A stretch of DNA of 64,000 nt from Candidatus Roizmanbacteria bacterium GW2011_GWC1_37_12 (GTDB taxonomy: Bacteria; Patescibacteriota; Microgenomatia; UBA1406; GWC2-37-13), in contig LBST01000005.1 of NCBI GenBank assembly GCA_000991135.1, positions 1 through 64,000 of the forward strand, given 5' to 3'. Shown here piece by piece: positions 30,805 through 53,406 of the stretch (the stretch's first letter is position 1; every line of letters starts with the position of its first letter). Made by a program: the position numbers and the translations under genes. The notes beneath the pieces are model-generated. The model did not search any database. It was given only the letters and a program-made list of their open reading frames with translations, and was not told the origin of the DNA.

Positions 30805-32223
30805 ATGAATCTTCTCAAAAAGCACTGGCCTTTGTTGATTCTAATACCCCTTTTCAGCTTCTTGATTTTTTTTCGCATTGATTGGTTGACTTTGGTCAAC
30901 TGGGACGAGGCTTGGTACGCTTCGATTGCCAGAAATATTGCCCAAACGGGTAATTTTATGAAAATGGACTGGAACGGCAATTCATATTATTATCACCCGC
31001 CACTCGGTTTTATTTTAATGGCTCTGTCGATTAAGGTTTTTGGAAATAACGAATTTGCCGTTAGATTGCCTTCGACGATACTCGGAGTGGGAGCAATAAT
31101 TCTTATTTATTTCATTGGCAAAAAACTATTTAAAAGCAACCTTGTGGGTTTTGCTTCGTCTTTGATTGTTGGTACCTCCGTTTGGTATCTAATAAGAACT
31201 CGATCCGGCGATTTGGATTCGACTTTCGTCTTTTTTTATTTATTGACGATTTTTTTCAGTCTGAAGTCAAAAGATAATTTTAAATGGTTTGTCCCGACGA
31301 TGATTTCTTTTGCCGCGCTTCTCTTGTCAAAGACTTTAATCGGCTTCTCGGCGGGAGTCTTAATTCTGTTCAATAACCTTAATCAAATTTTTAGAACAAA
31401 GAAAAATTTAACTTACTCGACAATGGCTGTTTTGGCTTTTTTAATATTGCTTGTCCCATGGTATTATGTCCAGTTGACGAGCTTTGAGTCTTTTTATAGA
31501 GACCATTTTATAGGAGTTGGAATGAGAAATAAAAGCCTAGCGTCTTATTTTCATATCGAAACATTCTTGCCTTTATTTTATCTTCATATGGGGATAAGAA
31601 AATGGTATTACATCTGGTTGGCGGCTTTGGGTTTAATCTTAATAACTTTTAGATTTTTGAAAAATAATTTTCTTTTTGTCTTGATTTGGAATTTTATCGT
31701 TTTGTATCCATTTTTGACGACCAACGAAACTCATATCTGGCACCTGATTCCGGTTTATTTACCGATTTCTCTTATTATCGCCGGAGCCTTATTTTGGGGG
31801 AAGGAATTGTTTATAAAAATCACCCGATTGAAAAAACTAGACTGGTTAGCCAATCTTTTATACGTGTTGTTTTTTCTTTTTATCTCGACGTGGCAGATAA
31901 AAATTTTTTATAAAGAAGTTTATCCGACTTCTCATTTTGTTCCCGACGATGTTGACATATCAAAGAGAGCCGCCAAGTACGATAAGCCCATTTATCTTGA
32001 CGACAACTTCAAACCAGTAGCGATATTCTATTCCGGAAGAAATATAATTTGGATGAATGACCTTGAAGAATCAAGAAGGACGGCCATCGGAATTTTTAAT
32101 TCATCAGAAAAAGATTTTATCCTGATAACGAGAAACTACATAGTCGATGAACTAAGAAAAAAAGAAATTCCTCTTAAAATCTGGGAAAGGAATAACTATT
32201 TGTCAATTATTAGTCGACCATAA
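30805..32223 (+). CDS. GT-C (PMT/ArnT-like) membrane glycosyltransferase
   Basis: A 472 aa polytopic protein. The first extracytoplasmic loop carries VNWDEAWYASIARNIAQTG and SYYYHPPLGFIL, the classic DE motif and PPL loop of ArnT/GT39 transferases. KVFGNNEFAVRLPS follows, as in most family members. About ten to eleven membrane helices precede a soluble tail. It is the best match to canonical GT39 in the locus. Its stop and the next start overlap (TAATG). Confidence 0.82.
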   Translation: MNLLKKHWPLLILIPLFSFLIFFRIDWLTLVNWDEAWYASIARNIAQTGNFMKMDWNGNSYYYHPPLGFILMALSIKVFGNNEFAVRLPSTILGVGAIILIYFIGKKLFKSNLVGFASSLIVGTSVWYLIRTRSGDLDSTFVFFYLLTIFFSLKSKDNFKWFVPTMISFAALLLSKTLIGFSAGVLILFNNLNQIFRTKKNLTYSTMAVLAFLILLVPWYYVQLTSFESFYRDHFIGVGMRNKSLASYFHIETFLPLFYLHMGIRKWYYIWLAALGLILITFRFLKNNFLFVLIWNFIVLYPFLTTNETHIWHLIPVYLPISLIIAGALFWGKELFIKITRLKKLDWLANLLYVLFFLFISTWQIKIFYKEVYPTSHFVPDDVDISKRAAKYDKPIYLDDNFKPVAIFYSGRNIIWMNDLEESRRTAIGIFNSSEKDFILITRNYIVDELRKKEIPLKIWERNNYLSIISRP

Positions 32224-33482
32224 TGAAAAACTTTTTTGATAAACACAAATACCTGATAGCTTTTATGTTGATATTGCTTGTTGGTATGTACCTTAGATTT
32301 TACAGGATCGGATATGTGCAAAGTTTTGGCTGGGACCAGGCTCGGGACGCTTGGAAAGTCAGAGACATTATCAAAGGCTATTTCGTCTTAAACGGCCCCC
32401 GGACCGGGATAGGACACTTCCACTTGGGACCCATATGGTATTATCTCCTCGTCCCTTTTTATTATTTCTCTAAACTTGACCCTTTCTCGGCTAATTATTT
32501 GAATATGATTGTTAACGTCTTTAATTTTATAGCGGTTTTTGTCGTCACTAAAAAGATATACGATAAAAATGTCGCCCTCTTTGTCAGCTTGATTTATGCG
32601 GCCAATAAATATCTTGTCGAGATCAATCGCACTTCGTGGAATGTCTCTCCGGTTCCGGGAGTAGCGATTCTTATCTTTTACGGAATTTACAAAATAGTTT
32701 ATGAAAAAAAATACCAATGGCTACCTATCGTAGCTTTTTTAACAGGATTGTTTTTACATCTTCATTTTTCAGTCGTATTTTTACCATTGATTATTCTTTC
32801 TTCTTTGATTTTAGTAAAAGATAAAAAGAAAGCACTTTTGTGGGGAATTATCAGTTTACCTCTGTTTTTTGTTTGGTTTATACCAAATATAGTTTATGAC
32901 ATCCAAACAAAAAATGGCAATCTAAACTTATTTAACAATTTTCTAAAAGATTATTTAATAGACGGTTTTCATTTTCGTTTTTTCCTTTACCGCCTACATG
33001 ACGCTTTTATTCAATTCAACATGATTTTGAGATTGCCAAAAGAGTTTGCTTTTGGGAAATTTATTATATCGATATTGTATTTTTTGGTTCTTTTATTTGA
33101 AAAGGAGAAGAAGCAGAAAATATTGGGATATTTAATATCGCTTTGGTTTCTTATCCCTGCTTTTGGTTATAGTTTTTACGGGGGAACGACATCGGAATAT
33201 TATATGCTTTTCAATTCGGTTCTCGTTATCTATATTTTAGTTTATCTACAGAAGAAAATATTAAAACTCAAGTTTAAGCCGACGATTTATTTATTGACCA
33301 TCTTTTGGCTCGGTTTTATATACTTTCAAACAAAAGATTTGTGGATAAAAAAAGATACCGACGGCCTAGTCAAACAAAAAGAATACGTGAGAGAACGGAT
33401 AAAACAAAATGATAAGATTGAGTTTGACGAAGGGAAGATAGAGTCTTACTTATGGCATATTTGGGTTGAAGATCCGCCATAA
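32223..33482 (+). CDS. GT-C membrane protein of the DQxRD subfamily
   Basis: A 419 aa polytopic protein. The usual DE/DD motif of the first loop is replaced by WDQARDAWKVRDI, followed by GIGHFHLGPIWYYLL. The block NRTSWNVSPVPG is related to SRFAWNPNPIPLF in the 48387 protein. Five genes in this locus share these features (32223, 33450, 42491, 48387 and 51958). It is probably a polyprenyl-phosphate-sugar-dependent transferase, but its substrate is unknown. The 3' end overlaps the convergent gene by 33 bp. Confidence 0.65.
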   Translation: MKNFFDKHKYLIAFMLILLVGMYLRFYRIGYVQSFGWDQARDAWKVRDIIKGYFVLNGPRTGIGHFHLGPIWYYLLVPFYYFSKLDPFSANYLNMIVNVFNFIAVFVVTKKIYDKNVALFVSLIYAANKYLVEINRTSWNVSPVPGVAILIFYGIYKIVYEKKYQWLPIVAFLTGLFLHLHFSVVFLPLIILSSLILVKDKKKALLWGIISLPLFFVWFIPNIVYDIQTKNGNLNLFNNFLKDYLIDGFHFRFFLYRLHDAFIQFNMILRLPKEFAFGKFIISILYFLVLLFEKEKKQKILGYLISLWFLIPAFGYSFYGGTTSEYYMLFNSVLVIYILVYLQKKILKLKFKPTIYLLTIFWLGFIYFQTKDLWIKKDTDGLVKQKEYVRERIKQNDKIEFDEGKIESYLWHIWVEDPP

Positions 33483-34937
33483 TTCTATACTAGTTCCATT
33501 TTTATACCTTATAGTTTTATCCAACAGGGCATTTTGAGGTATATTCTCTTTTCTCCATTTTTCCACTCGAAAAACGTATGGTTCTTTGTCAAAGATAAAA
33601 TAACATTGATTATTGGTAAATTCCTGTCTTGGATACTTTAATTTTTGGTGATTGGCGTAATAAGAAAACAGATAATAATATGTATAAGGAATGACAGGAG
33701 GAGTATAAATTTTTAGGCAATAATATTTATTATTTGTTTTTTCAATAAAGTAGTTGACGATTTTATTATCGGCTCTAAGGCCAATTAGAGGTACGTTTTT
33801 GTAAGACTGGTTCATTAAAAAAGAAGCTATGATATAGAAGAACAATATTCCTAAGAAACTATTTTTTAATAATTTTAACTTATTGTTTAAACTGAAAATA
33901 AGGATAAGGATAAATAAAATAATGAATTGGACTCCATCAAGATAATAATCCCAGAAAAAATTATTTCTACTGACAAGACTGACTAAAAAAATTATCGATA
34001 TCAGCAAAGAGAAAAACAAAAGAGGATCAAGTTTATCTCTTTTAATGTTTTTCATCCCGATGATAAGGAGATATATAAAAAATAAAAATACAAAGATGCC
34101 AAGATATAAATTTTCCTGGGGAATTAGTTGAAAATAATATTTGATAAATAATTGAGCTCTTTCTGTAAGGGTAGATAAAAGAGACAGCTTATTGGTTGAA
34201 GTAGGATGAGCGTAAAAATTAAGGAAAGCCTTAGTTTGGATGAAATTATTTTTCAATTCAAATAATAATCTTGGAAAAATAGGGGCGACAAAGCCTGTAA
34301 GAAAAAGAGCGAGTCTCTTTAAGTTTAAATAGCTTTTTCTAAATAATTTAAAAAAAAGAGAAGCGATGAAGAATGACGTTATTATAAATATTCCAAAAGC
34401 AACCTCGAATTCAAAAATAAATCCCAAAGAAAGAGACATAAAGAATAGATATTTGCTAGATTGGTTTTTGAAGAATTGATAGACAGAGTAGATGAATAAC
34501 AGGACAAATAAAGGACTCAAAGTATTATTGCTGGCAAAAAACCCTAGTCTGACAAAAAAACTACCGGCGGCAACCGGCAGCAAAAACAAGAGGGAAGATT
34601 GGTGGCCTAATTCCTTTTTGACAAAAAAGAAAAACCAAAATAAAACGACTGTTGAGAAGGCAAATAATCCGACATAAAAGCCAACAGGCCAGCCGTTAAA
34701 GATGAGATAAAACAAGGAAAGAAGATAATACCACCAGGCGCCGTGATGAACGCCCTGGATTCCCGTGGTCGGGCCGATAAAGGTAAAATTTTTGTCACGG
34801 ATAATCTCTTCGGCCTTCAAAAAATCTCTTCCTTGATCAAAGGTGTAGGGAACGGTTTGGTTTATTATGGGTGTTAAGCGGAGATAAAAAAAAATAAACA
34901 GAATTAAAAAGAAGATGCCTAGTTTTAGCCACTTCAT
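33450..34937 (-). CDS. GT-C membrane protein of the DQxRD subfamily
   Basis: A 495 aa polytopic protein. The first loop reads YTFDQGRDFLKAEEIIRD, then IGPTTGIQGVHHGAWWYYLL, the subfamily signature. About eleven to twelve hydrophobic segments are followed by a C-terminal soluble part of roughly 90 residues. It starts 28 bp from the divergent gene at 34966, with a shared palindromic -10. The 33-bp tail overlap with the gene at 32223 leaves no room for a terminator. Confidence 0.65.
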   Translation of the reverse strand: MKWLKLGIFFLILFIFFYLRLTPIINQTVPYTFDQGRDFLKAEEIIRDKNFTFIGPTTGIQGVHHGAWWYYLLSLFYLIFNGWPVGFYVGLFAFSTVVLFWFFFFVKKELGHQSSLLFLLPVAAGSFFVRLGFFASNNTLSPLFVLLFIYSVYQFFKNQSSKYLFFMSLSLGFIFEFEVAFGIFIITSFFIASLFFKLFRKSYLNLKRLALFLTGFVAPIFPRLLFELKNNFIQTKAFLNFYAHPTSTNKLSLLSTLTERAQLFIKYYFQLIPQENLYLGIFVFLFFIYLLIIGMKNIKRDKLDPLLFFSLLISIIFLVSLVSRNNFFWDYYLDGVQFIILFILILIFSLNNKLKLLKNSFLGILFFYIIASFLMNQSYKNVPLIGLRADNKIVNYFIEKTNNKYYCLKIYTPPVIPYTYYYLFSYYANHQKLKYPRQEFTNNQCYFIFDKEPYVFRVEKWRKENIPQNALLDKTIRYKNGTSIELWRIFNPNMP

Positions 34938-34946
34938 ATTTTTTTA

Positions 34947-34956
34947 ATTATATAAT
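34947..34956. promoter_or_regulatory. Bidirectional -10 (ATTATATAAT) between divergent GT genes
   Basis: The palindrome contains TATAAT on each strand. Exactly 9 bases separate it from the ATG of each divergent gene (34937 minus, 34966 plus), so both transcripts would have leaders of only a few bases. The whole gap is 28 bp. AT-rich sequence raises the chance of coincidence, but the symmetry is striking. Confidence 0.5.
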
Positions 34957-34965
34957 AATCTAAAT

Positions 34966-36084
34966 ATGTTTCTTTTGATTTTATATTTTTTGTTGATTCT
35001 TTTGCTTTCGATATATTCATATGCTTTAGTCGATCCCAATATTACTTTTTTTAACCACCCCCTCTGGACAAGTTTCCGAAATCTAATGGTTGAGTTTGGT
35101 TATAACCGAAGACAGGATTCATGGCTAGTTTATTTATCGATAATCGTTCTGCTTTTTTTCTTTCACTATTTTTTTGTTTCACGTTTCAAAAAACTTGCCC
35201 TTAATCCTTTTAAAATCGCCTTGTTTGTAGGGGGCATATTACTTTTTTCCTATCCGTTTTTATCGGCTGATTTTTTCAGCTATATTTTTTACGCGAGAAT
35301 TACAACTTTGTACTTTAAAACGCCATATACCAACATACCGGGAGATTTTTATTTGGATCCTTGGTTGAGATTTACCCAGTGGACTGGCCACAACTCTCTT
35401 TATGGACCAATATTTTTTTTAGTATCCCTTGTCCCTTCTTTTCTTGGTTTTGCCAAACTGCTGCCGACTTTTTTACTGTTCAAACTGGTCAGCGTTTGTT
35501 TCTATCTTCTTGGTGTTTTTCTCCTGGGAAAACTTAATAAGAAATGGGCGATAATTTTTGCCACAAGCCCCCTAATATTAATTGAAGGTTTGGTCAATGG
35601 CCACAATGATTTAATTGGAATTTCTTTGGCAATAGTCGGGCTTTACTTTTTATTCAAGAAAAATAAAGTTTTGTCAGCATTATTTATAATTTTTTCTGTT
35701 GGCATTAAATATTTGACCTTGCCTTTCTTGTTAATTTTTGGCAATTTCAAAAATAACAAGTTATTTGTTTTTTTGTCTATCTTAGGTGTGATTGTTTATT
35801 GGACAATTAAGTCTGAAATTCAGCCTTGGTATTTTATTATGTTTTTTGGTCTTTTGCCGTTTTATGAAAATTTTATTTCAAGACTCAATATTTTTTTCTT
35901 CGGACTTCTTATGTCATATTATCCTTATGTCAGATTTGGTGGTTGGGGAAAAGTGCGCTTTTGGACTACTGATCAAAAAGTTATCTTCAAGCATAATATA
36001 ATCATCGTATTTTTTTTGATCAATCTTGCCTACCTTTTTTTTATATATTTCTTCAAGACAAAAAAAGTAGTAAAAAAAATTTAG
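34966..36084 (+). CDS. GT-C membrane glycosyltransferase, GT87/MptB-like
   Basis: A 372 aa polytopic protein, shorter than its neighbours. SADFFSYIFYARI after the second or third helix gives the catalytic-type Asp. WTGHNSLYGPIFF is similar to the YGP loop of polyprenol-phosphate-mannose-dependent mannosyltransferases (MptA/MptB, GT87). EGLVNGHNDLIGISLA is a further conserved block of that group. Substrate is not determined. It converges with 36081 with a 4-bp overlap. Confidence 0.6.
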   Translation: MFLLILYFLLILLLSIYSYALVDPNITFFNHPLWTSFRNLMVEFGYNRRQDSWLVYLSIIVLLFFFHYFFVSRFKKLALNPFKIALFVGGILLFSYPFLSADFFSYIFYARITTLYFKTPYTNIPGDFYLDPWLRFTQWTGHNSLYGPIFFLVSLVPSFLGFAKLLPTFLLFKLVSVCFYLLGVFLLGKLNKKWAIIFATSPLILIEGLVNGHNDLIGISLAIVGLYFLFKKNKVLSALFIIFSVGIKYLTLPFLLIFGNFKNNKLFVFLSILGVIVYWTIKSEIQPWYFIMFFGLLPFYENFISRLNIFFFGLLMSYYPYVRFGGWGKVRFWTTDQKVIFKHNIIIVFFLINLAYLFFIYFFKTKKVVKKI

Positions 36085-37793: not shown

Positions 37794-37801
37794 AGCGTCG
37801 G

Positions 37802-38611: not shown

Positions 38612-38612
38612 A

Positions 38613-38727
38613 AATTGACCTAATTGATCTAATTTCTAATTAACCTAAAAAATATCCAATAACCCAATTGGGATTTAAGACATTGGCAATTATTTAGGTC
38701 AATTAGACCAATTAGAAATTAGAAATT
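38613..38727. repeat. AT-rich word-repeat hairpin between two GT2 genes
   Basis: The left arm is built of words such as AATTGACCTAATTGATCTAA and the right arm of AGACCAATTAGAAATTAG, roughly its reverse complement. The centre is AACCCAATTGGGATT, itself a small palindrome. The block fills the whole gap between the genes at 37802 and 38728. It has the same design as 17062-17131 and 51846-51957 but different words. Confidence 0.65.
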
Positions 38728-39597
38728 TTAAAGTATTTTCTTAATAATTTTGTCTTTTAATGTTTTTTTCTTTTTCCAATGAAGGGTTTCTTTCAATCCC
38801 AATCGGAAAAATTCTGTCTCGTCTATTTTTTCAGTACTTTTGAATTTTTTCATCTCTAGATAATAGAAATAGACCAGAAAGTAATAGAATAACTGCAAAA
38901 TTGAAAGAATAAATCCTTGAATTCCGTCTTTATAGCCTTCCGCCGCAAAATAACGACTGATAAACTCGTTTAGAGACTTTTTTACTACATCCGAGAATGT
39001 GTAAATTCTTTTTTCGTCGACGAGTTCTTTGGCTTCGTATTTGGCGTAGCGTTTTGCTTTTTCTAGATACTCGTCCAGGTCGCGATAGTTATGGTGGATA
39101 AGGGCAAATTCTTCTTTTGCTTCAATTTCAAAGCCTCGTCCCGTCACTTTTGGTTGACGATGAATTATTTTGGGCCAATTGACTTTATTTTTTTTAAATA
39201 TTCTGATTTGGTAATCTGGCCACCAACGGCTATGCTTTATCCATCGGCCGAAAATAATATTTTTTCGAGGGATTCTAAAATAGTCATAAGTCAAAAGATG
39301 TGATTTAATGATCGTTTTGAGACCAGTGGTAACGATTTCATCAGGATCCAAGAAAAATAAATAATCGGACTGGACAAAGTCCTTGGTCTTATTTCGAATC
39401 AATTCAACATAAGGAACTTCTTGATTCAATTTAATGATTTTTACTTTTTTGTACTTTTTTAACACTTCAATTAATTGAAGTGAAATCCCAATGTCGACGA
39501 TAACAATTTCATAAACTAGGTCGTAAACCGAGTCGATAACTTTCGACAAAAATGGAGGGTTGTTTTTAACTACGATTACGGCTGAAATGTTTTCCAT
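38728..39597 (-). CDS. GT2 glycosyltransferase, WaaE/LgtF-like
   Basis: A 289 aa enzyme. SAVIVVKNNPPFLSKVI, LDPDEI (acidic motif), YFRIPRKNIIFGRWIKHSRWW and PDYQIRIFKK identify the WaaE-type GT2 group. HHNYRDLDEYLEKAKRYAKYEA follows, as in family members. It is the intact paralogue of the gene at 29998 and shows what that gene looks like without the repeat insertion. The start overlaps the flippase gene by 22 bp. Confidence 0.87.
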   Translation of the reverse strand: MENISAVIVVKNNPPFLSKVIDSVYDLVYEIVIVDIGISLQLIEVLKKYKKVKIIKLNQEVPYVELIRNKTKDFVQSDYLFFLDPDEIVTTGLKTIIKSHLLTYDYFRIPRKNIIFGRWIKHSRWWPDYQIRIFKKNKVNWPKIIHRQPKVTGRGFEIEAKEEFALIHHNYRDLDEYLEKAKRYAKYEAKELVDEKRIYTFSDVVKKSLNEFISRYFAAEGYKDGIQGFILSILQLFYYFLVYFYYLEMKKFKSTEKIDETEFFRLGLKETLHWKKKKTLKDKIIKKIL

Positions 39598-41024
39598 AGA
39601 TTCTTTACTTCACTAAAAAGATCAATCTTAAATAGAAATTTCAAAGTTAAAAGATAACTAATTATACCGCTGAAGATGCTAATAAGCAAAGATTGGAAGG
39701 GTGGAATTTTTAATTGAAAAATTAACAAGACTATTAATCCCATCAATATAGAAGATAAGAGAAACGGTAGAACATTTTCTATGAAAATGAAATTAATTGT
39801 TTTTTTAGCTGTAAAAACAACCAATACAAAAGAACAGGATAGTGCCACTAATGTAATTGGGAATCCGAAGCCGGCAAAGAAAAAAGTTAAAATCGGAACC
39901 AAAATCCAAGTAGCAGCAGTCCAACCGATCATGAAATAAAGACTAGTTTTTGTTTTACCTAAACCGTTTAAAAGATTAATAAATGGCGTCGAGTATGAAG
40001 AAAGCAAAGCTGATAGGCAAAAAAGATAGAAATAGGGGACGGCGGGTGACCATTTTGAATATTTTGGGATAAATTCGATCATTTTTTCCATAACTAGTGC
40101 TAATCCTAATGTTGCTGGGATGATAACGATTGATTGGTAATAGATAACTTTTTCAACGACATTTTTTAGTTTTTGAGTATCGGCTTGAAACCTTGAAAAT
40201 AAAGGAAAAAGAACTCGGCTAAGCGAGTCCATGATTATTCTTATTGGTGACTCAGCCCATTTTTTTGCCCAGCCCAAAAAACCCAATACCTCAAAACCAA
40301 GAACTTTACCTAGATAAAGAGTCATGAAATCATCTTTGACAAGGGCTAAAAATGAAGACAATTGGAAAGGAACGCCAAAGGTTAGAAGTTTTTTTAGAGA
40401 ACTAAGATCTATATTTATTGTCATTTTCCATGGCGAGAGATAGTAGATAATAATTAGACCTAAGATTGCCCGAAGAATCACAGCCGCTGTAAAACTATTT
40501 AAACCCCAACCCATTATGGCAAGAGTGATAACTGATAGATAAAAAACCGTATTTTCAACAATTTGAACAAGAACGATTCTCTGAAATTGAATCTTTCTCT
40601 CCAAGAAAATAGAGGGAATAGTCTTCAAAGATGATAGAAAGAAAGAGATCAAAAGAGCCCAATACAGATATTGTCCTTCGATGGGAAGCTTATAAAATAC
40701 CATGACAATGGGAGTGATGAGCCAACCAATAATGATTATTGTTATTACTAGAATTTGTTGCACTGTAAATACTGTTGATATCTCTTTATCTTCAATTTCT
40801 TTTTTTTGAATCAGAGAGGCTGCTAAGCCTATGTCAGAAAAATAATTAAAAATTGCTATTAGAGAAAGAATGGTGAAATAAATGCCAAAGATTTTCGGAG
40901 TCAAGAGAATCGTCAGAACAAGATTAGCAATAAAGCCTAAGATGGCAGAGTATCCACTTTGAAAAAAAAGACTCAATGTCGAAATGATTGTTTTCTTTTT
41001 AAGGTCGTCCATGTTTTTTTTCAA
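39576..41024 (-). CDS. Wzx-type polysaccharide flippase
   Basis: A 482 aa polytopic protein (about 12-14 helices) of the MOP/MVF superfamily. LTPKIFGIYFTILSLIAIFNYF near the N-terminus and GFEVLGFLGWAKKWAESP in the middle are typical of Wzx/RfbX. It would flip lipid-linked oligosaccharides across the membrane. It is the only flippase in the locus, so it probably serves the products of the neighbouring GT2/GT4 enzymes. The start lies inside the palindrome at 41023. Confidence 0.88.
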   Translation of the reverse strand: MKKNMDDLKKKTIISTLSLFFQSGYSAILGFIANLVLTILLTPKIFGIYFTILSLIAIFNYFSDIGLAASLIQKKEIEDKEISTVFTVQQILVITIIIIGWLITPIVMVFYKLPIEGQYLYWALLISFFLSSLKTIPSIFLERKIQFQRIVLVQIVENTVFYLSVITLAIMGWGLNSFTAAVILRAILGLIIIYYLSPWKMTINIDLSSLKKLLTFGVPFQLSSFLALVKDDFMTLYLGKVLGFEVLGFLGWAKKWAESPIRIIMDSLSRVLFPLFSRFQADTQKLKNVVEKVIYYQSIVIIPATLGLALVMEKMIEFIPKYSKWSPAVPYFYLFCLSALLSSYSTPFINLLNGLGKTKTSLYFMIGWTAATWILVPILTFFFAGFGFPITLVALSCSFVLVVFTAKKTINFIFIENVLPFLLSSILMGLIVLLIFQLKIPPFQSLLISIFSGIISYLLTLKFLFKIDLFSEVKNLWKTFQP

Positions 41025-42468
41025 GGACAGTCCCTCGTAGAGGGACTGTCCTTATAAACAACAAAATAAATGTTAATAGGCTTACTATATTTCCAATTTT
41101 TTCAATTCCAGTTTCTTTATTTTTATCAAATGGTTCAATTGACGCTTTGGCAAAAAACTCAAGAGGAATCGATTTTTTCTTTTCCAGACTTCGCCAATAT
41201 TTATAATCGATAGTTTTCGGAAGGTATTCGGCGACTGCATAAGCAGCTTTTATTTCGATATACTCTCGTGAGAGAAACTTTTTTTCAAACTGATTTTTTG
41301 TTATTTCCTGCCCTTTGAAATATTTTCCGTTAACGATAAAAAGGACGATCAGTAAGACAGTTAGCAGTAAATTTTTGAAAGGGATTTTTATTTTGTCCAG
41401 AAAAAAAGTTGAAAAAAAAGTTATCCCCAAAAGAGGCGGACCGATTAATCGCCAAGGGAACTGAATAACTGATGATATTGGGGCAAAAATCTCCCAAATA
41501 AACTTGGATTGGTAAGTGGTAAGAAAAAGATGAATAAAGGTCATAATAAATAAAAACCAGAAAATAAAGATGTCGTCATATTTTGGTTTTCTTAATGATT
41601 TTAAGAACATTAAGACTCCTAATCCAAAAAGTATTAACTGAATTTTTCCTATCATGAATGACATTCCATCGTTTATACAACCGCTTGTTGATCCTCCAAA
41701 TCCCCAACTTGACTGCCAGAGCTGATCTACGCATAGAAAATGGCCGCGGAAGTTAGTTAAAGTGGCAACTTCTTTAGCCCAAGTGTAATTCATTTCCATT
41801 AAAGCCGGTAACCAAAAATATGCCGAAAGCAGTAATCCAAACAGGATAGCTAATAAGCTTCGTTTTTTGTTTTTAATTATTAAAACAAATATTAAAATCA
41901 AAGGAATAGAAATAAGGGAAAGAATGTTATGAGACGTGAAAAGAAAAAAAAGCAACATGGAAGAAGCAAAAATATTTTTATTTAGCAAAAAAGACATTGC
42001 CAAAGGTAAGATCGCTAAGAACCAAGTTTCTGCTAGGTTGCCTCGGACGAAAATATTCAGCGGAAAGTAAAGAGATGTAATGTATAAGAAGCCTCCTAGG
42101 AAAGAAGGAAAAAAGCCAAAAAAATGTTTTAAGAAAAAATAACATCCAAAAAAGCCGAAGATCAAAGCCAAAAAAAATGACAGTTTTATTGAATCGATAA
42201 TATCGAATCCGATGATATTAATAAAAGAGGTGATCCAATATGAAAAAGGAGCATAAAAGTTAAAAACAGGAAACCCCAATCCGAAATTCATGTCAGCGGC
42301 AACACGAGGAGGGATATGAAAACTTTTTAATTCTTTGACAAACTGTTGGATCCGTACCGGTTGGGTTGAGTCATGAAAAGTAAAGGTTGAAGAAGAAAAC
42401 GGATTGAGGGACCGGCCAAGGAAAAAGATGATTGAGAGAAAACAAAGAATTAGAAAAAGTTTTTTCAT
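40999..42468 (-). CDS. Polytopic membrane protein, YfhO/PTPS-related type
   Basis: A 489 aa protein with about twelve helices. FHDSTQPVRIQQFVKEL and VAADMNFGLGFPVFNFYAPFSYW match membrane proteins carrying the '6-pyruvoyl-tetrahydropterin synthase-related' domain, a GT-C-like group near YfhO. The Asp in FHDSTQ takes the place of the catalytic acidic residue of GT-C enzymes. Its last residues (VPLRGTVLEKK) come from the palindrome at 41023-41053. Function probably glycosyl transfer, not proven. Confidence 0.6.
   Translation of the reverse strand: MKKLFLILCFLSIIFFLGRSLNPFSSSTFTFHDSTQPVRIQQFVKELKSFHIPPRVAADMNFGLGFPVFNFYAPFSYWITSFINIIGFDIIDSIKLSFFLALIFGFFGCYFFLKHFFGFFPSFLGGFLYITSLYFPLNIFVRGNLAETWFLAILPLAMSFLLNKNIFASSMLLFFLFTSHNILSLISIPLILIFVLIIKNKKRSLLAILFGLLLSAYFWLPALMEMNYTWAKEVATLTNFRGHFLCVDQLWQSSWGFGGSTSGCINDGMSFMIGKIQLILFGLGVLMFLKSLRKPKYDDIFIFWFLFIMTFIHLFLTTYQSKFIWEIFAPISSVIQFPWRLIGPPLLGITFFSTFFLDKIKIPFKNLLLTVLLIVLFIVNGKYFKGQEITKNQFEKKFLSREYIEIKAAYAVAEYLPKTIDYKYWRSLEKKKSIPLEFFAKASIEPFDKNKETGIEKIGNIVSLLTFILLFIRTVPLRGTVLEKKHGRP
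41023..41053. repeat. 31-bp palindrome at a gene overlap
   Basis: Arms AAGGACAGTCCCTC and GAGGGACTGTCCTT pair perfectly around GTA. It lies in the overlap between the end of the gene at 40999 and the start of the flippase gene. Compared with 29985-30014 the two bases after AAGGACAG changed in both arms, so pairing was kept. Confidence 0.88.
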
Positions 42469-42469
42469 T

Positions 42470-42482: not shown

Positions 42483-42490
42483 TCAACTCA

Positions 42491-43744
42491 ATGAAAATAA
42501 TGACTTTTCTTATTATTTTGGTAGCTGGTTTTTTATTTTTTTATAAGGTTGATGTCGGTTTTAGGATGTCGCCATATTATAACTACGATTCTGACTTTGG
42601 CCGAGACCTTTTAAAAATGACCGAGATTTTACACGGCAAGCAGACCTTAATCGGTCCTCAGCTTAGCTTTGCTGGATTAAGACTGGCGCCTTATCAATTT
42701 TATTTTTTCGCGCCGTTTCTGTGGCTAGGACGATTTGACTATCGATCCGTTGTCTTCGCTAACGCTGGTCTATTTGTGTTGGGATTTTTTTTGTTATTTT
42801 TTTTGTTACAAAAAAGAATCGGTCGTTTCTATTCATTTTTGTCTATTCTTTGGTTGATTTCGACTCCTTATATCATCTTGACAGCGAGATCACCGGGCAA
42901 TGGTTTCTCATATGTGATTTTGTTATTGTTAGTCGTTTTTTTGCATTTCTTTTATAAGAGTTTTTCACTCAAACAGCACTTTTTATTTGGATTTATCGAA
43001 GGAATCATTATCAATTTTCATCCCTTAAGTTCGTTGATAGTAGTTCCATTACACCTATTGAAGTTAAAAAAAGCCAAAGATTTTTTTGTTTTTGCTTTTG
43101 GTTTGTTGATAACTTTTTTATCGGTGTTTATTTTCGACCTTCGTCACGATTTTGTCATTATTAATTTTTTTATTAACGGGGGTCAAAAGAATTTTTTTAC
43201 AGTCTTAACTCAGTTTCTTAATTTCAGTTCTTTTTTAAAAGGCTATACTGCTGATTCTTATCAAGGAGCGATTCATTACTACTTTCCTTTTTTAGTATTT
43301 TTTCAAGTTGTCATCATATTTTTGAATAGAAAGTCGAGACTTCGTTTTTTGCTGCTAGCGTTTTTGTTAGGAGTAAATATCTTATTGTTCCCCTTTCGTT
43401 TTTATAATCAAGCAAGAAACTTAGGAGAAGTAGAAAGTAGATTTAACAAAATTATCTCTCAAGATTTCCTACAGAAGAAAGATTTGAACATCGTTTTGAT
43501 AAATGACACTCCTATATCTAAAGTCGGCTATGAATATAGATTTTTGTTATCGAAAAACAACTACCAGATCGACGACGAATATTCTTATCATAATTCAAAG
43601 TATTTACTGATGATTTCTGAAATAGGTGATCTAAATTGGCAGAAAGAAAAAAGTTGGGAACTCGAGCAATTTGGTAACAAAAAACTTATAAAAAAAACCA
43701 ATTCAGACAACTACTTTTATTATTTTTTTGAAAAAACCTATTGA
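42491..43744 (+). CDS. GT-C membrane protein of the DQxRD subfamily (variant DFGRD)
   Basis: A 417 aa polytopic protein from the ATG at 42491; an apparent upstream extension would run antisense through the neighbouring gene. The first loop is NYDSDFGRDLLKMTEIL, then IGPQLSFAGLRLAPYQFYFF, a diverged form of the DQxRD signature. The C-terminal 90 residues are soluble. The following secreted protein gene starts 1 bp after the stop, so they are probably one transcript. Confidence 0.62.
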   Translation: MKIMTFLIILVAGFLFFYKVDVGFRMSPYYNYDSDFGRDLLKMTEILHGKQTLIGPQLSFAGLRLAPYQFYFFAPFLWLGRFDYRSVVFANAGLFVLGFFLLFFLLQKRIGRFYSFLSILWLISTPYIILTARSPGNGFSYVILLLLVVFLHFFYKSFSLKQHFLFGFIEGIIINFHPLSSLIVVPLHLLKLKKAKDFFVFAFGLLITFLSVFIFDLRHDFVIINFFINGGQKNFFTVLTQFLNFSSFLKGYTADSYQGAIHYYFPFLVFFQVVIIFLNRKSRLRFLLLAFLLGVNILLFPFRFYNQARNLGEVESRFNKIISQDFLQKKDLNIVLINDTPISKVGYEYRFLLSKNNYQIDDEYSYHNSKYLLMISEIGDLNWQKEKSWELEQFGNKKLIKKTNSDNYFYYFFEKTY

Positions 43745-43745
43745 A

Positions 43746-45371
43746 ATGATTTTACAAAGATTTATTATCGTTTTTTTGTTATTGCTTTTTTTCCCGATAA
43801 CCGCTTTATCCAAAGAAAAACCTCAAGTAATTTTTATCAATCAAGTCAGAGGAGAAGAGTGTTGTTCTGTCGGAAGCTTGGACAATCTAAAGATGCAGAT
43901 TGAAGTTTTTGAGAAATACGAAATACCAAGTTTTTTTACATTGAGATACGATGCGTTAATCAATCAAGATTATATCGACTATCTCAAGGGAGTGACAACA
44001 AAATATCCAAAGATAATTAATCTGGGACTTTTTATCGAAATAACCCCCCTTTTGGCCAAAGATTCTGGTGTCAAATATAATGGCACGGTCGATCGCTGGT
44101 TTGAGGCACAGAATGTCTTTACGATTGGGTATCAAAAAGACGACAGAATAAAGATCGTTGACCATTTATTTAAAACTTTCAAGGGTAAATTTGGCTATTA
44201 TCCTCGTCTGACGTCGTCGTGGATGATTGATACTGATTCTCTAAACTACCTCCACAGTAAATATGACACCGTTGCTCATCAAATCACACGAGAACAGTGG
44301 GGAGTAGATAGCTATACTCTCTACGGTGGCCCGCCGCATTATCCTTATCCTGCATCTTTCAAATGGGCTTTTATACCAGATTTTAGTCAAAAAGATCCTT
44401 TATTGATACTTCGCCAGACCGTGACCGATCCTCTTTATAATTACGGAGAGACAGAAAAATCATACACTTCCCAACCCAACGATTATCTCAACGCCGGGCT
44501 TGACCTTAGATATTTTAAAGATCTTATCAACCAGGCGCTTTTTGAGCAAAAAACCCCTGGGTTTGCCCTTCTAGGTTTAGAAAATGCCAATGAAATTAAA
44601 TACCAAGAGGAATATCTAAAACAAATAGAATACGTCAATGAAATAAAAAGCAGAGTTTTTTTTCCCAACCTAAAAGAGCTTTCTGATTTCTGGTCAAAAC
44701 AAAAGATAACCTACTATCAGGGTAAAGATTTAATAAATAATACTAATAACGAAGCTGAATTTATTACAACTCCAGACAACCGGGTGAGACAGAGAAAATA
44801 TTTAGGTAAGGTTTACACGACTGATTACCGGTATTTTCATTCCGGTTTGGTCGACCCGTACAACGATTATGTAGCAAAAAAACACGGATATTGGGTCGTT
44901 CCTTACGTTTTGGATTTTTCCCATACTTATAAAAAAGAATCAATTTTTCCGGAAACAAAGAATGACCTTGTTATTGATAAACAACCTGACTTTAAAATAA
45001 ATAAAATTGATGCGAAACAATTTAATAAGACAAGATTGAGAAACTATCCTTACTTTTTGCCAGAAGCGATCGAAAGAGAAATCTACAGAAAGAAGAGCGA
45101 AGTTAAAGTGTCAATAGACAAGACTATTGAAATAGAGCTTTTCGCCCGGGACGTATATGGTTATCCAGTCAATATTTCTTCCCCGGTAGAGATCAAAACC
45201 GATCCTTTTACAGAAGAAATCGATTATTTTCCTGATTCGGCCAAACACATTTTTATCTTGCCAAATAAAAAGCAAGATTTTCAAGAAATAATCTTGGTTT
45301 CCAATAAAAAAATAATAAAAAAAATCTGGCTTTTTCCCAAACTCTTTCCATTCTTAAAGATAATTTGGTAA
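43746..45371 (+). CDS. Secreted polysaccharide-deacetylase-like protein
   Basis: A 541 aa exported protein from the ATG at 43746 (an alternative start at 43728 overlaps the upstream gene). A signal peptide occupies about residues 1-22. Residues about 28-300 resemble a polysaccharide deacetylase or related alpha/beta-barrel: FINQVRGEECC, EIPSFFTLRYDAL, LGLFIEITP and GYYPRLTSSWMIDTD. A typical HxxxH zinc site is not apparent, so activity is uncertain. The C-terminus is beta-rich. It could trim or bind the glycan made by this locus. Confidence 0.5.
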   Translation: MILQRFIIVFLLLLFFPITALSKEKPQVIFINQVRGEECCSVGSLDNLKMQIEVFEKYEIPSFFTLRYDALINQDYIDYLKGVTTKYPKIINLGLFIEITPLLAKDSGVKYNGTVDRWFEAQNVFTIGYQKDDRIKIVDHLFKTFKGKFGYYPRLTSSWMIDTDSLNYLHSKYDTVAHQITREQWGVDSYTLYGGPPHYPYPASFKWAFIPDFSQKDPLLILRQTVTDPLYNYGETEKSYTSQPNDYLNAGLDLRYFKDLINQALFEQKTPGFALLGLENANEIKYQEEYLKQIEYVNEIKSRVFFPNLKELSDFWSKQKITYYQGKDLINNTNNEAEFITTPDNRVRQRKYLGKVYTTDYRYFHSGLVDPYNDYVAKKHGYWVVPYVLDFSHTYKKESIFPETKNDLVIDKQPDFKINKIDAKQFNKTRLRNYPYFLPEAIEREIYRKKSEVKVSIDKTIEIELFARDVYGYPVNISSPVEIKTDPFTEEIDYFPDSAKHIFILPNKKQDFQEIILVSNKKIIKKIWLFPKLFPFLKIIW

Positions 45372-45374
45372 TTG

Positions 45375-46853: not shown

Positions 46854-46854
46854 A

Positions 46855-48384: not shown

Positions 48385-48386
48385 AG

Positions 48387-49829
48387 TTAAAGGTCGAATT
48401 CATATATTTTAACACCATAATCCAGGGGTTTCATGTCGATTAGCTTGCCGATTGAAGTCGTCGCCGGCGGGCGGTCGCAAATGGCGTCTTCACAAAGATA
48501 ATAACCAGTTTTAATCTTAGGGTCACAACGGTAGATAATCTGTTGGCAATAGTCATAAACTGGTTTATTTTTTACAAGAGACATCATGTACCTGTATTTA
48601 CTTTCAATAAAATTCTGGGGAAAGATATTGTAAGCGAGACAATAATCTTTTTTAGTGGTGACTTTTTTTATAGATTCCCTGATCCAAATGAAAGTTTTAT
48701 CATAAGGGCCAAAAGCAGGAGATTTAATAATATCTATTAATATTAAGATGAAAAATAGTAAAGCAGTTATTTTTTCGCCTAAGAGATTTTTTGAGATCAA
48801 AACAAAATAAATGATTACGATCGGGATTAAAAATAAAAGGTAAAAATCTATTAATGAGTTTTTATAAAAATAAAGCATGAGAAACGAGAAGAGCAAGAAA
48901 AAATTCAGAAGTTTGCAGGGTAGGGAACAAAAATTTTTGTTCCTTACAATAAAGAATTTGAAAGCAAAAGAAATCAACGATATAAATAAAACCAATAGTC
49001 CAAAATAACCTAATATTTGACTTTTAAAAAACATCACCCTGGCTAAAAATAAAGAAAAGTCTTTGACAATAAATTTAACAAAGAAAGGGATACCGAACAG
49101 TTTGAGTTTAGTGATTGACTGGGAAGAGATCAAAAAATTAATAATCCCAAGAGTATTTTTAAAGTTATTTTGTAACTCATAAATTATGAAGGGCGAAACA
49201 AGAACGAGGTTTATTATTAAAAATTTTGAAATCCTTTTTAAATTCAATTTCTTGGCAAAAAGAACCGTGAGAAAGTAAAAAATAAAAATAACAAGTCCTT
49301 GATAATGAAGTTGAAAAGCTAGGTTACTCGTGATTGCTCCAAAATAAAAGCTTTTTTCGTCTTTGTCGTAGAGAAATTTATAAAGGAAGTAAAAAGATAG
49401 AATTACAAATAAAGGGATGGGATTGGGATTCCAGGCAAAGCGAGAATACTCTATTGATAGTGGAGAAACTGCGTATAAACTTGCGGTCAAAAAAGCGAGT
49501 TTTTCGTCAAAAAGTTTTTTCGCAAAAAGATAGATAACGACTGTCGTCAGCGATCCGAGGATAGCCGTAAGTGCCGCCGGCGCCAGTGGTGACTTGGAAA
49601 AGGTATAAGCAAGACTCATCAAATAGTACCAGAAGGGAGGAAGAAAAAAATTACCCACAGAAGCCTTGGGCCCAAGAAGAATTAGTTTTCCCTGTTCAAA
49701 ATATTCTTTTATGTAAAAAAGGTCTCTAACCTGATCCTGATGGTATGAGATGTAATGAGGCAGGCGGAAAAGTCTTAGAAATAAGGAAATAAAAAAAAGC
49801 CAAAATAAAATTTTAGTCAATTTTTTCAT
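48387..49829 (-). CDS. GT-C membrane protein of the DQxRD subfamily
   Basis: A 480 aa polytopic protein. SYHQDQVRDLFYIKEYF and LLGPKASVGNFFLPPFWYYL form the subfamily signature, and SRFAWNPNPIPLFVIL is the third conserved block. The palindrome at 48920-48947 is translated within it (VRNKNFCSL). The start overlaps the stop of the neighbour at 49813 by 17 bp. Closest relative here: the protein at 51958. Confidence 0.68.
   Translation of the reverse strand: MKKLTKILFWLFFISLFLRLFRLPHYISYHQDQVRDLFYIKEYFEQGKLILLGPKASVGNFFLPPFWYYLMSLAYTFSKSPLAPAALTAILGSLTTVVIYLFAKKLFDEKLAFLTASLYAVSPLSIEYSRFAWNPNPIPLFVILSFYFLYKFLYDKDEKSFYFGAITSNLAFQLHYQGLVIFIFYFLTVLFAKKLNLKRISKFLIINLVLVSPFIIYELQNNFKNTLGIINFLISSQSITKLKLFGIPFFVKFIVKDFSLFLARVMFFKSQILGYFGLLVLFISLISFAFKFFIVRNKNFCSLPCKLLNFFLLFSFLMLYFYKNSLIDFYLLFLIPIVIIYFVLISKNLLGEKITALLFFILILIDIIKSPAFGPYDKTFIWIRESIKKVTTKKDYCLAYNIFPQNFIESKYRYMMSLVKNKPVYDYCQQIIYRCDPKIKTGYYLCEDAICDRPPATTSIGKLIDMKPLDYGVKIYEFDL
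48920..48947. repeat. 28-bp near-perfect palindrome in a GT-C gene
   Basis: Arms GTAGGGAACAAAAA and TTTTTGTTCCTTAC pair except at one position. The outer GTAGGGAACA is identical to that of 13261-13288 while the inner four bases of each arm have changed together. It is in frame in the coding sequence. Confidence 0.85.
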
Positions 49830-51105
49830 AGACGTTTTTCATTTTAATAGCTTTTTCCAATGGATATTTTATTTCAAAAGAACTTTCGAAGACTTTGGCT
49901 TGGTATTTAAAATAAGTGCGAAGTTCATAGAAAGAAGACATTGTTATTATAAAAAATAAAAAATTAAAAAATAAAGTTTTTTTACCTATTTTATTTATCG
50001 CAACGCCGACAAAATATACTACAGAAGGAATCGCGGTAAAAGTACGAAGCATATTAGGATTTTCCCAGGGATAAGTCATTAAAGTTGGAATGATAGAAAA
50101 TAAAAGATAAAAGATAGAAAAAATATTATAAGGATTTTTCCAATTCTTAATTGAAATCATTAAACCAAGAACAAACAAAATTCCTAAAATGGGGTTTAAA
50201 GCAGGCTTACCGGGATAATTATGGCGGCCGTTCAAGTCTCCCTTGGTAAAAAACATAAGCGTTGTAGAGGAAACGTTCTGCCAGAGTCCGCTGACCTTTT
50301 CATTAACAGTCATTTTAGAATTTTTCAAAAAAAATTGCTGGTCGACCCGGGATTCTTTATGAGTCATCAAATAAGAAGTGAGAGGAATGATTGTAATAAT
50401 GAAGGAAATTAAGAATAAAAATAATTGTTTTCGTAGGGACAGGACACTGTCCTGTCCGTACTTTTTAAAAATCAAAAACCCTAAAGGTAAAAGAAAGAAA
50501 ATTCTTCCTGGAGTATAAGAATTGAAAGCGAGTCCGGCGAATATTCCCGACAATATCAAGGATAGACCCTCTAGACGAGGGTCTGTCCTTATAAAAACTG
50601 TTCTTATAAAAAAATAAATAGAAGTTAACTCTAAAAATAAAAGAAACGTCGGTTCGAAAGCAAAGCGGGAAAAGTTAAGGAACCATCTTAATGTTAAGAA
50701 AATAAAAGTTAATAAAAAGGGCATTATGTCATTCCGTAAGATTCCTCGACTCTCCGCGGACTGGCGGATCGCTCGGAATGACAGATGGGCGACTAAATAA
50801 AACATTATTACACTAAGCACGCCAAAAATCGCCGCAGGTAGTCGAAGGGCAAAAGTATTTATTCCAAATAACTTCAATGACCACAACAAGATATAAAAAT
50901 ATAAAGTAGAATGGCCGGTCGCCAACGATGAGTAGGGAGTATAAGATTTTCCGTCCAAAGATAAAGCTAATTTAGTAAATTCTATCTCATCAAAGGCGAG
51001 GTATTTCGGGATGTTCGTAAATTTGTAAAAAACTAAAAAAAAAGAGAGGATTAATAAAAAAAAGGGGGTCATTCTGGCAAGACGTTTTGCTTTATCTTTT
51101 ATCAT
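49813..51105 (-). CDS. GT-C (GT39-like) membrane glycosyltransferase with four repeat insertions
   Basis: A 430 aa polytopic protein from the ATG at 51105. YLAFDEIEFTKLALSLDG gives the acidic motif, and KLFGINTFALRLPAAIFG follows as in GT39 proteins. Four different interspersed repeats are read in frame: the partial 51068 element at the N-terminus, 50728-50782, 50558-50590 and 50433-50461. The reading frame is intact all through. The start overlaps the ALG5-like gene by 14 bp. Confidence 0.7.
   Translation of the reverse strand: MIKDKAKRLARMTPFFLLILSFFLVFYKFTNIPKYLAFDEIEFTKLALSLDGKSYTPYSSLATGHSTLYFYILLWSLKLFGINTFALRLPAAIFGVLSVIMFYLVAHLSFRAIRQSAESRGILRNDIMPFLLTFIFLTLRWFLNFSRFAFEPTFLLFLELTSIYFFIRTVFIRTDPRLEGLSLILSGIFAGLAFNSYTPGRIFFLLPLGFLIFKKYGQDSVLSLRKQLFLFLISFIITIIPLTSYLMTHKESRVDQQFFLKNSKMTVNEKVSGLWQNVSSTTLMFFTKGDLNGRHNYPGKPALNPILGILFVLGLMISIKNWKNPYNIFSIFYLLFSIIPTLMTYPWENPNMLRTFTAIPSVVYFVGVAINKIGKKTLFFNFLFFIITMSSFYELRTYFKYQAKVFESSFEIKYPLEKAIKMKNVYEKID
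50433..50461. repeat. 29-bp near-palindrome in a GT-C gene
   Basis: GTAGGGACAGGAC and GTCCTGTCCGTAC pair except at one position around a short centre. It is a variant of subfamily A-i. It is read in frame as YGQDSVLSLRK. Confidence 0.8.
50558..50590. repeat. 33-bp palindrome in a GT-C gene
   Basis: Arms AAGGATAGACCCTC and GAGGGTCTGTCCTT pair with one G-T type mismatch around TAGAC. It belongs to subfamily A-ii, with inner bases different from 29985 and 41023. It is read in frame as RTDPRLEGLSL. Confidence 0.8.
50728..50782. repeat. 55-bp GTCATTCCG repeat in frame in a GT-C gene
   Basis: GTCATTCCG and CGGAATGAC are inverted ends, with a GC-rich interior (CTCCGCGGACTGGCGGATCG). It is read in frame as FRAIRQSAESRGILRND. 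Related copies lie in spacers at 23929 and 25605-25809. Confidence 0.8.
51068..51084. repeat. Partial GTCATTCTGG repeat at a gene start
   Basis: GTCATTCTGGCAAGACG matches one end of the element at 46234 but no opposite end is present. It is read as RLARMT near the N-terminus of the GT-C protein, the same peptide and frame as in the 46234 copy (SLARMTP). Confidence 0.6.
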
Positions 51106-51841
51106 ATTTACCAAGTACTGCAAAGAGTTTAATCTTAAAAATATCTTTTAATGATTCAACCGCGTCCTTTATGAAGTTGACGTTTTTAGTCTCGACGTGT
51201 CGCCATTGAACCGGTATTTCTTTTATGTCATATTTTAGTTTGGAGGCAAGAAAAAGAAATTCCATATCAAAACCAGCTGAAACAGAAGAACCTTTTGCTT
51301 TTCTGTTATTGTGGAAAACCAATAGCTTGTCAATAATTTTTAAAGCCGCTTCTTTTTCAAAAATCTTGAACCCGCACTGAGTATCTCTGATTTTAGGAAG
51401 ACCAATGATAAAATTCCTAATTATTATTGCACCAAAAGCCATAATTTTGCGAAGTATTGGAGCTCCTTGACGATAACTACTTCTTGAGCCGATGACGATT
51501 TGATAATTGTTCGTTTCTTTAATCAATTTATCGGCCTCTTCAATTGGTGTTGCTAGGTCGATATCAGAAAACATCACCCAATCGCCTTTAACATTTTTTA
51601 TACCAGTAAGGATTGCAAAAGCCTTGCCTTGATGAGAATTAAGCGCTAATTTAAATTTGGGAAAAATTTTCAAATATTTATTTTTAATGATAGATTTTGA
51701 GTTGTCGCTGGAACCGTCGTCGACAATAATCACTTCTAAAAACCGGTCGTCTCTCGCGGTAAAATTTCCTATCTTATCGAGGACGCCTTTTTGGATATTG
51801 GCTTCTTCGTTGTAACAAGGAATAATAAGAGAAATTCTCAT
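51092..51841 (-). CDS. GT2 polyprenyl-phosphate sugar synthase (ALG5/DPM1-like)
   Basis: A 249 aa GT-A enzyme from the ATG at 51841. SLIIPCYNEEANI, EVIIVDDGSSDNS, FSDIDLATPIEE (DxD-like acidic motif) and CGFKIFEKEAA are typical of dolichyl-phosphate glucose or mannose synthases. No C-terminal membrane helices follow. It probably makes a polyprenyl-phosphate sugar in the cytoplasm, the donor that GT-C enzymes use outside, so it may serve the many GT-C genes around it. Confidence 0.85.
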   Translation of the reverse strand: MRISLIIPCYNEEANIQKGVLDKIGNFTARDDRFLEVIIVDDGSSDNSKSIIKNKYLKIFPKFKLALNSHQGKAFAILTGIKNVKGDWVMFSDIDLATPIEEADKLIKETNNYQIVIGSRSSYRQGAPILRKIMAFGAIIIRNFIIGLPKIRDTQCGFKIFEKEAALKIIDKLLVFHNNRKAKGSSVSAGFDMEFLFLASKLKYDIKEIPVQWRHVETKNVNFIKDAVESLKDIFKIKLFAVLGKYDKR

Positions 51842-51845
51842 ATTT

Positions 51846-51957
51846 AAGTTAAAAGTCAAGAGTCAAGATTCAAAAGTTAAAGTAAAAAGTCAAAAGTATT
51901 TGATAAAACTTTTTAATTTTAACTTGTATTTTTGACTTTTGATTTTTGAATTTTGAC
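51846..51957. repeat. AT-rich word-repeat hairpin between GT genes
   Basis: The left half has words such as AAGTCAAGAGTCAAGATTC and AAAAGTCAAAAGT. The right half has ACTTTTGATTTTTG and AATTTTGACTT, approximately the reverse complement. It fills the gap between the genes at 51092 and 51958 and can form a long imperfect hairpin with a loop of about 20 bases. Confidence 0.65.
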
Positions 51958-53406
51958 TTATCTTATAAGTTTATATATTCTAACACCTTCAATATTCCAC
52001 TCACTAACAATTTTATTCGGCGCAAAATATGCTATATCCCACTGCGGATTGCCAATTATAGGGCTGCATCTTTTCTCGCAGACAAGAAATAGTTCATCTG
52101 CTTTTTCCAAAGAATCTTTCTCAATCGATCTTTTTTTCCAAAGCTCGAGAAAATATCTATAGGTGGAATCAGAGTATTTTTCCGGAAGAGCGGTCACGGT
52201 AAACTTTTCTTTATCTATGTTGTCATATATTTTTTTTGCGATTTTATGCGCTAATTGTATTTGGTTGTTTGAAGGGTTATGGAAATAAGGATATTTTTGA
52301 AAATTAAGAAAAATCAGACCAAAGACGAATAACATTGTTAGAATTTTCCCAAAAATAGAATCGAAGGTAAAACTAAGAAAATAAGCGACGACGATGTAAT
52401 ATAAGGGATAGAGAACACCGAAATAATGAGGATGTTTTTGACCGCTGTAAAATGACATAAAAAAAATTGTCGTAAGAAAAAAAAGCAAAAAAATCTTTAT
52501 ATTTGATTTTTGTTTTATAAGGGTAAGATAAGCAACGACTAAAAAGAATACTAGAACGTAAACCAAAAATTTATTTAAGTCGATGTGGAATGAATAAAAA
52601 TTTAGATAGTAGAAGGAATCAAATAGGCTATTAATTTTCGTCATTAAATTTGTTCCCGACTGTTGAAAAAGCTTCAGAAAATTATTTGTGTTGAGGAATT
52701 GGTGACGGAGATCGAAGATGATTAAAGGAGAAGAGAAGAATAAGAAATTAAGAATTAAGAATGAAGAATTAAGAATTAATTTTTTAGTTTGTTTAATGTT
52801 TTTAACAAAATATCCTATATAAATAATAAAGGCGGCTGGCAAAATAAATAGTGCTAAATAGTGAAGTTGAACAGAGAAAGAAAGGAAAGCTCCGGTTAAA
52901 GCGAAAAAATACCAGCGATTTGTTTTTATGCTTTTAATCACAAAGTAGATTGTCAACAAAGTAAATAACGGTAAGAGATTTGGGTTCCAGGAAAAACGAG
53001 AGAGTTCAATCAAGACGGATGAAAAACTCAAAAAAACAGTCGAGATTAAAGCAGTTTTTTTATCAACAAGTTCTTTGACAATAAAGTAGTTAATTAGTAA
53101 ATACAAGGAAGAAAACAATACCACTCCAACAACAGGGCCAATCGGATTGAATTTAAAAAACAATAACCAAGGGGCAATAAAATAGTAATAAAAAGGTCCC
53201 AGATAGACTTGACCGATCGAAGTCGGGGCGCCGATCGCAGGAAAATGTTCTAAGGTGACGATTCTTTTCAAGATTATCGCGTCTCTTCCTTGGTCACCCA
53301 AAAAAGTAGTAAAACCCGACAACTTATAAAATCTAAGAAAAACACCTATTATCAACGTCGTCACTAAGAGCCAATTATTTGCTAAAATATTGAGTATGCG
53401 GCGCAT
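51958..53406 (-). CDS. GT-C membrane protein of the DQxRD subfamily
   Basis: A 482 aa polytopic protein. TTFLGDQGRDAIILKRI, GAPTSIGQVYLGPFYYYF and SRFSWNPNLLPLFTLL are the three blocks of the subfamily. About eleven helices and a soluble tail are present. A run of TAAGAAT words (52738-52783) is translated as LILNSSFLILNF. The start codon overlaps the divergent gene at 53396 by 11 bp. Confidence 0.7.
   Translation of the reverse strand: MRRILNILANNWLLVTTLIIGVFLRFYKLSGFTTFLGDQGRDAIILKRIVTLEHFPAIGAPTSIGQVYLGPFYYYFIAPWLLFFKFNPIGPVVGVVLFSSLYLLINYFIVKELVDKKTALISTVFLSFSSVLIELSRFSWNPNLLPLFTLLTIYFVIKSIKTNRWYFFALTGAFLSFSVQLHYLALFILPAAFIIYIGYFVKNIKQTKKLILNSSFLILNFLFFSSPLIIFDLRHQFLNTNNFLKLFQQSGTNLMTKINSLFDSFYYLNFYSFHIDLNKFLVYVLVFFLVVAYLTLIKQKSNIKIFLLFFLTTIFFMSFYSGQKHPHYFGVLYPLYYIVVAYFLSFTFDSIFGKILTMLFVFGLIFLNFQKYPYFHNPSNNQIQLAHKIAKKIYDNIDKEKFTVTALPEKYSDSTYRYFLELWKKRSIEKDSLEKADELFLVCEKRCSPIIGNPQWDIAYFAPNKIVSEWNIEGVRIYKLIR
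52738..52783. repeat. 7-bp TAAGAAT tandem repeat in a GT-C gene
   Basis: TAAGAAT, TAAGAAT, GAAGAAT, TAAGAAT and TAA follow each other with a 7-bp period. Since 7 is not a multiple of three, each unit is read in a different frame and the protein shows a 7-residue pseudo-repeat (ILNSSFL / ILNFLFF). Confidence 0.6.
53380..53388 (+). promoter_or_regulatory. Extended -10 promoter of the gene at 53396
   Basis: TGC followed by TAAAAT (53383-53388) is an extended -10. Seven bases later comes the ATG at 53396, so the mRNA would be leaderless. It lies inside the divergent gene's coding start region. The mirror element (53420-53428) on the minus strand reads TGT-TAAAAT. Confidence 0.45.

Follow-up and report, generated by a model that had tools for sequence, protein, structure and literature searches.

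In ArnT, the lipid A aminoarabinose transferase of family GT83, D55/E56 is reported as the active-site pair (PMC7801869), and an RYA motif is reported to be conserved among ArnT proteins (PMC5377068). In the protein O-mannosyltransferases (PMTs), replacement of the second acid by Ala causes slight or moderate loss in POMT2 (E86A) and Pmt1 (E78A), and the second acid is essential in Pmt4 (E81A) and POMT1 (E44A) (PMC5016187). Our literature search found no paper that names a DQxRD motif and none centred on Roizmanbacteria glycosyltransferases.

We analyzed a window of 64,000 nucleotides from Candidatus Roizmanbacteria bacterium GW2011_GWC1_37_12 (contig LBST01000005.1), in which five GT-C proteins, referred to below by their lower coordinate (Table 1), are divergent paralogs of one subfamily, their common ancestry being shown by the profile searches and trees described here. 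The subfamily is real, lineage-wide and without a name when set against Pfam, NCBIfam and PDB.

Table 1. Window coordinates of the subfamily copies and of the neighboring features discussed
Coordinates	Strand	Feature	Pfam match
32223..33482	+	P1, GT-C of the D-x-x-R-D subfamily; DQARD at 32334-32348; C-terminus shorter	
33450..34937	-	P2, D-x-x-R-D subfamily GT-C with DQGRD at 34824-34838	
39576..41024	-	Wzx-like flippase in the locus	PF13440, 6.9e-51
42491..43744	+	P3, most divergent GT-C copy; DFGRD at 42593-42607	
48387..49829	-	P4, GT-C of the D-x-x-R-D subfamily; DQVRD at 49722-49736	
49813..51123	-	DE-type (DEIEF) PMT_2 GT-C of the 51958 module; outside the D-x-x-R-D subfamily	
51092..51859	-	GT2 directly downstream of the 51958 gene, polyprenyl-phosphate-sugar-synthase-like; probable donor maker	PF00535, 7.1e-22
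51958..53406	-	P5, D-x-x-R-D subfamily GT-C with DQGRD at 53281-53295; central gene of the conserved module	
53390..54487	+	GT87-like, divergent from the 51958 gene, part of the module	PF09594, 26.1 bits

Five divergent paralogs of one GT-C subfamily

All five ORFs encode multi-spanning membrane proteins with D-x-x-R-D in the first outside loop. The sequence-only reading had named the subfamily for D-Q-x-R-D; the five motifs that it listed stood, and the 42491 copy, DFGRD, departs from that name in having DF. In the alignment of the five copies, D38, R41 and D42 (51958 numbering) are invariant, each in a single column. The G-rich loop followed by a GPxWYY-like block, which the same reading had listed, was found in the five copies (GPIWYY, GAWWYY, APYQFY, PPFWYY, and GPFYYY). 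Its WNPN-type block, proposed for three copies, is exact in 48387 and 51958 only, so the count of three is loose; the sequences in the remaining three copies are degenerate (WNVSPVPG, SNNTLSPLF, and GNGFSY). A sixth copy with DQASD lies on another contig, outside the window (G000:C4:38815-40218). Directly after the DFGRD copy, a 547-aa protein (43728-45371, + strand) had no Pfam or NCBIfam match.

Profile A3 was restricted to relatives of the 51958 copy so that circularity would be avoided, and it retrieved the other four copies, with E-values of 5.9e-76 for 48387, 1e-59 for 32223, 4.9e-42 for 33450, and 3.3e-21 for 42491. In contrast, the DE-type GT-Cs that share the locus (26468, 30805, 49813, and 36081) scored between 1.6e-6 and 0.03; given these two sets of scores, the kinship of the five copies is more than chance. 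Profile-profile comparison of the 42491 group with the 51958 group gave 4.9e-41 over 453 columns. In a tree with the motif masked, 29 family rows were split by one branch from seven other GT-Cs (95/95; 96% of bootstraps). The outgroup consisted of E. coli ArnT plus six GT-Cs from the locus; as branches are long and this outgroup contains no GT39 protein, this tree separates the family from ArnT and its locus neighbors and not from all GT-Cs. The earlier proposal of a distinct GT-C subfamily agrees with this separation. In the 125-row tree, the five copies fall in separate ortholog groups.

All five copies have the first-loop Asp of GT-C enzymes; the GT-C fold is predicted by structural model for 51958 and 42491, and by homology only for 32223, 33450, and 48387. 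The 51958 model (pLDDT 90.3, pTM 0.89) was compared with solved structures using VIA-align 2 and gave Z 25.8 against Pmt4 (343 residues, 3.9 A), 25.8 against ArnT 5f15 (425 residues, 4.4 A), 25.2 against Pmt2, and 25.1 against OST-A; the scores amount to a tie, and the fold favors none of the four. The 42491 model was weaker (pLDDT 78.8), with Z 17.0 for Pmt4 (279 residues, 4.2 A) and 15.1 for ArnT (356 residues, 4.8 A). The PMT_2 cut-off (PF13231, 26.1 bits) was passed by 48387 (47.4) and 51958 (41.1), with 33450 (23.7) and 32223 (18.7) below it, and the PMT cut-off (PF02366, 22.7) was passed by 48387 only, at 31.1 bits; 42491 had no Pfam hit. TIGR03663 was the best NCBIfam match in 10 of 16 family members, at best 6.5e-13. 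Against PDB sequences, A3 matched yeast Pmt2 weakly (E 1.4e-4), and profiles A2 and A4 found no match.

Family matches were identified in all 57 related genomes searched, spanning genus to class and including the present one, often in multiple copies. In a phylum-wide sample, 17 of 145 genomes matched at 1e-20, ten of them in the same class (this genome included) and seven elsewhere. The subfamily is typical of the CPR class to which this genome belongs (Roizmanbacteria and other Microgenomates). A congener (G010, contig C3) has four matches in the order and strands of 32223, 33450, 48387, and 51958, where the 48387 counterpart was verified as DQVRD in L014 and the other three were assigned by order and length; this recurrence argues that the multi-copy locus is no accident of one genome. 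The best 80 of 358 relatives carry titles of Patescibacteria/Microgenomates groups or simply "bacterium", with one exception, L094 (DYJZ01000078.1). Titled Thermoanaerobaculum aquaticum, it has a module of Roizmanbacteria type with unchanged gene order and is probably mis-binned or misnamed. A tblastn search of plasmids with 51958 gave no match.

The motif residues and the comparison with ArnT

Conservation is highest in columns G59, D38, R25, P88, P71, P227, N141, D42, and R41, followed by Y74, Y328, and Y75. The first Asp is present in 125 of 125 rows, the Arg in 121, and the second Asp in 122, in a set partly fetched by a pattern containing these letters. This conservation makes D-x-x-R-D, GPxxYY, and the Asn block, and not DQ, the signature of the family, usable for recognizing this GT-C subfamily.

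Position 2 varies. Among rows found by profile it is Q in 51, E in 19, F in 3, and M, H, and T in 1 each; the full set has Q in 126, E in 44, F in 3, and others singly. As part of the full set was fetched by the pattern D[EQ][GA]RD, the way it was collected accounts in part for its nearly invariant R and D. On the 125-row tree, built with the motif columns left out, Q and E changed places at least 5 times: most DEGRD rows form a branch beside the Roizmanbacteria DQGRD clade, and L024, L029, and L101 lie inside that clade. The 42491 group reads D-[FL]-[GA]-R-D. D-Q was therefore rejected as a clade marker, and since Q and E switch among orthologs, the residue marks no new donor, contrary to the earlier suggestion that D-Q in place of D-E meant a different donor or metal. 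Judged from these alignments, position 2 is probably a tolerated neighbor of the Asp, and D-Q beside a catalytic Asp should not be taken for a functional marker.

The same suggestion had been made for the conserved Arg, which E. coli ArnT also carries. The MG1655 protein reads PDETRYAEI, that is, D-E-T-R-Y-A, with the Arg at the same place, and hhalign pairs its D-x-x-R-x-A with that of the family, at marginal overall similarity (probability 47.5). An Arg at this spacing, three residues beyond the catalytic Asp, was therefore already known, and the candidate novelty of the Arg was dropped. Given also the Q/E exchange, the motif by itself does not point to new chemistry. From the ArnT D-E-x-R-Y-A, the five copies share D and R, and A in two copies; E and Y are absent. 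No match to the ArnT model NF009784 was found among the five copies. In the alignment, the YFEKP block of ArnT is absent from the family, which has LGP, LPP, LAP, or HGA instead, and neither its Lys nor the EL2 Asp of ArnT has a counterpart; the latter appears to be replaced by the Asn-Pro-Asn-type block, a residue pairing taken from the sequence alignment. With these two residues missing, the active sites may be less alike in detail than supposed.

The conserved module around the 51958 gene

Across the 80 related loci, the 51958 ortholog recurs in one module, in which a divergent GT87-like gene is followed by the GT-C itself, a GT2, and another GT-C, of DE type. Counting only loci with enough room, we found the GT2 immediately downstream at 46 of 53 DQ loci; at DE loci it was immediately downstream in 5 of 24 and within 4 kb in 12 of 24. 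The GT87 gene took the upstream position at 50 of 53 DQ and 14 of 22 DE loci. Orthologs of 48387 come after the module in several relatives. An HlyD-like / ABC ATPase / MacB-like cassette adjoins the GT87 gene in the window (54469-57375, + strand) and recurs next to the module at roughly half of the 80 loci. The GT87 / GT-C / GT2 / GT-C module offers a starting place for the surface glycans of Microgenomates.

The nearest solved relatives of the GT2 at 51092 are dolichol-phosphate-mannose synthase (8.2e-15), ArnC, and sll0501. Dolichol-phosphate-mannose synthase and ArnC are, by name, makers of polyprenyl-phosphate sugars. Further, L050, which belongs to another class of the phylum, encodes a single 736-aa ORF (L050:1198-3405, - strand) in which a GT2 domain (27-195) is fused to a DEGRD GT-C (261-694). 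The identity of the GT2, its adjacency, and this fusion together support the ordinary GT-C donor class. In three other ORFs of 929-949 aa (L057:55-2844, L058:10-2856, and L059:1402-4188), the C-terminal half contains a DQERD GT-C; the N-terminal half of the L058 ORF matches PTPS_related (PF10131), which the window has as well, at 40999-42468. Only one GtrA match was identified in the genome, on contig C16.

Explanations weighed and comparison with known systems

The proteins are most likely ordinary polyprenyl-phosphate-sugar GT-C transferases of a surface glycan. We give a probability of about 0.65 to the fuller reading that they are paralogs of one D-x-x-R-D GT-C subfamily that would use polyprenyl-phosphate-sugar donors and tolerate Q, E, F, or L after the first Asp, with no donor marker in the motif. 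The adjacent GT2 would make the polyprenyl-phosphate-sugar, which would then be flipped outward; the D-x-x-R-D GT-C would move the sugar to a cell-surface glycan or protein, and its invariant first Asp presumably acts as the catalytic or metal-binding Asp does in ArnT and PMT. The slight or moderate effect of losing the second acid in some PMTs favors this reading. The weaker GT2 adjacency at DE loci than at DQ loci, the missing counterparts of the ArnT Lys and EL2 Asp, and the essential second acid of Pmt4 and POMT1 count against it. That the subfamily is an undescribed GT-C family of its own with a rebuilt active site is possible but improbable; the second acid would be dispensable, the phosphate-binding Lys and EL2 Asp of ArnT gone, and the Arg-Asp pair and the Asn block would bind the donor for decoration of a Microgenomates surface glycan.

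It is unlikely that these are ordinary bacterial GT39/GT83-like PMT_2 enzymes with a drifted loop and nothing specific to the subfamily: two copies pass PF13231 and the fold fits both PMT and ArnT, but the family keeps a separate branch with the motif masked, D-x-x-R-D, GPxxYY, and N141 are retained over 125 rows, and scores are far below every NCBIfam cut-off. The separate lineage, the lack of the EKP and EL2 Asp blocks of ArnT, and the separate ortholog groups would suit the view that Q and Arg beside the catalytic Asp mean a different donor or metal and that five copies mean distinct steps of one glycan. We consider it very unlikely in view of the Q/E interchange among orthologs, the F or L of the 42491 group, the same Arg in ArnT, and neighbors partly common to DE and DQ loci. 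Loss of catalysis in some copies, which would act as acceptor-binding or regulatory partners, comes to mind above all for 42491, a short protein (417 aa versus 466-508 in its kin) with a long branch and no Pfam hit; its frame is open (from TTG at 42404) and D35, R38, D39, and R133 are invariant among its kin, making this highly improbable.

Among known systems, the Agl23-type TIGR03663 gave 28.5 bits for 51958 and 20.3 for 48387 against a cut-off of 126.25. The GT39 protein O-mannosyltransferases Pmt1/2/4 carry a DE dyad, whereas the five copies have DQ or DF and some orthologs DE. The first-loop D-E-x-R-x-A of ArnT aligns with the family D-Q-G-R-D-A at about 10% identity, with Tyr after the Arg in ArnT and Asp in the family, and ArnT has a GT2 partner, ArnC, as the source of its lipid-phosphate sugar, just as the 51958 gene adjoins a GT2. 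The CsbB/GtcA/YfhO and GtlA/GtlB systems (PMC8035078) likewise combine a lipid-phosphate-sugar GT2 with a PMT_2-type GT-C; the locus described here has a Wzx-like flippase which, like the single GtrA match on contig C16, is a candidate at most for the flipping step. Besides having only that one GtrA match, the present system differs from theirs in the two GT-Cs and the GT87 of its module.
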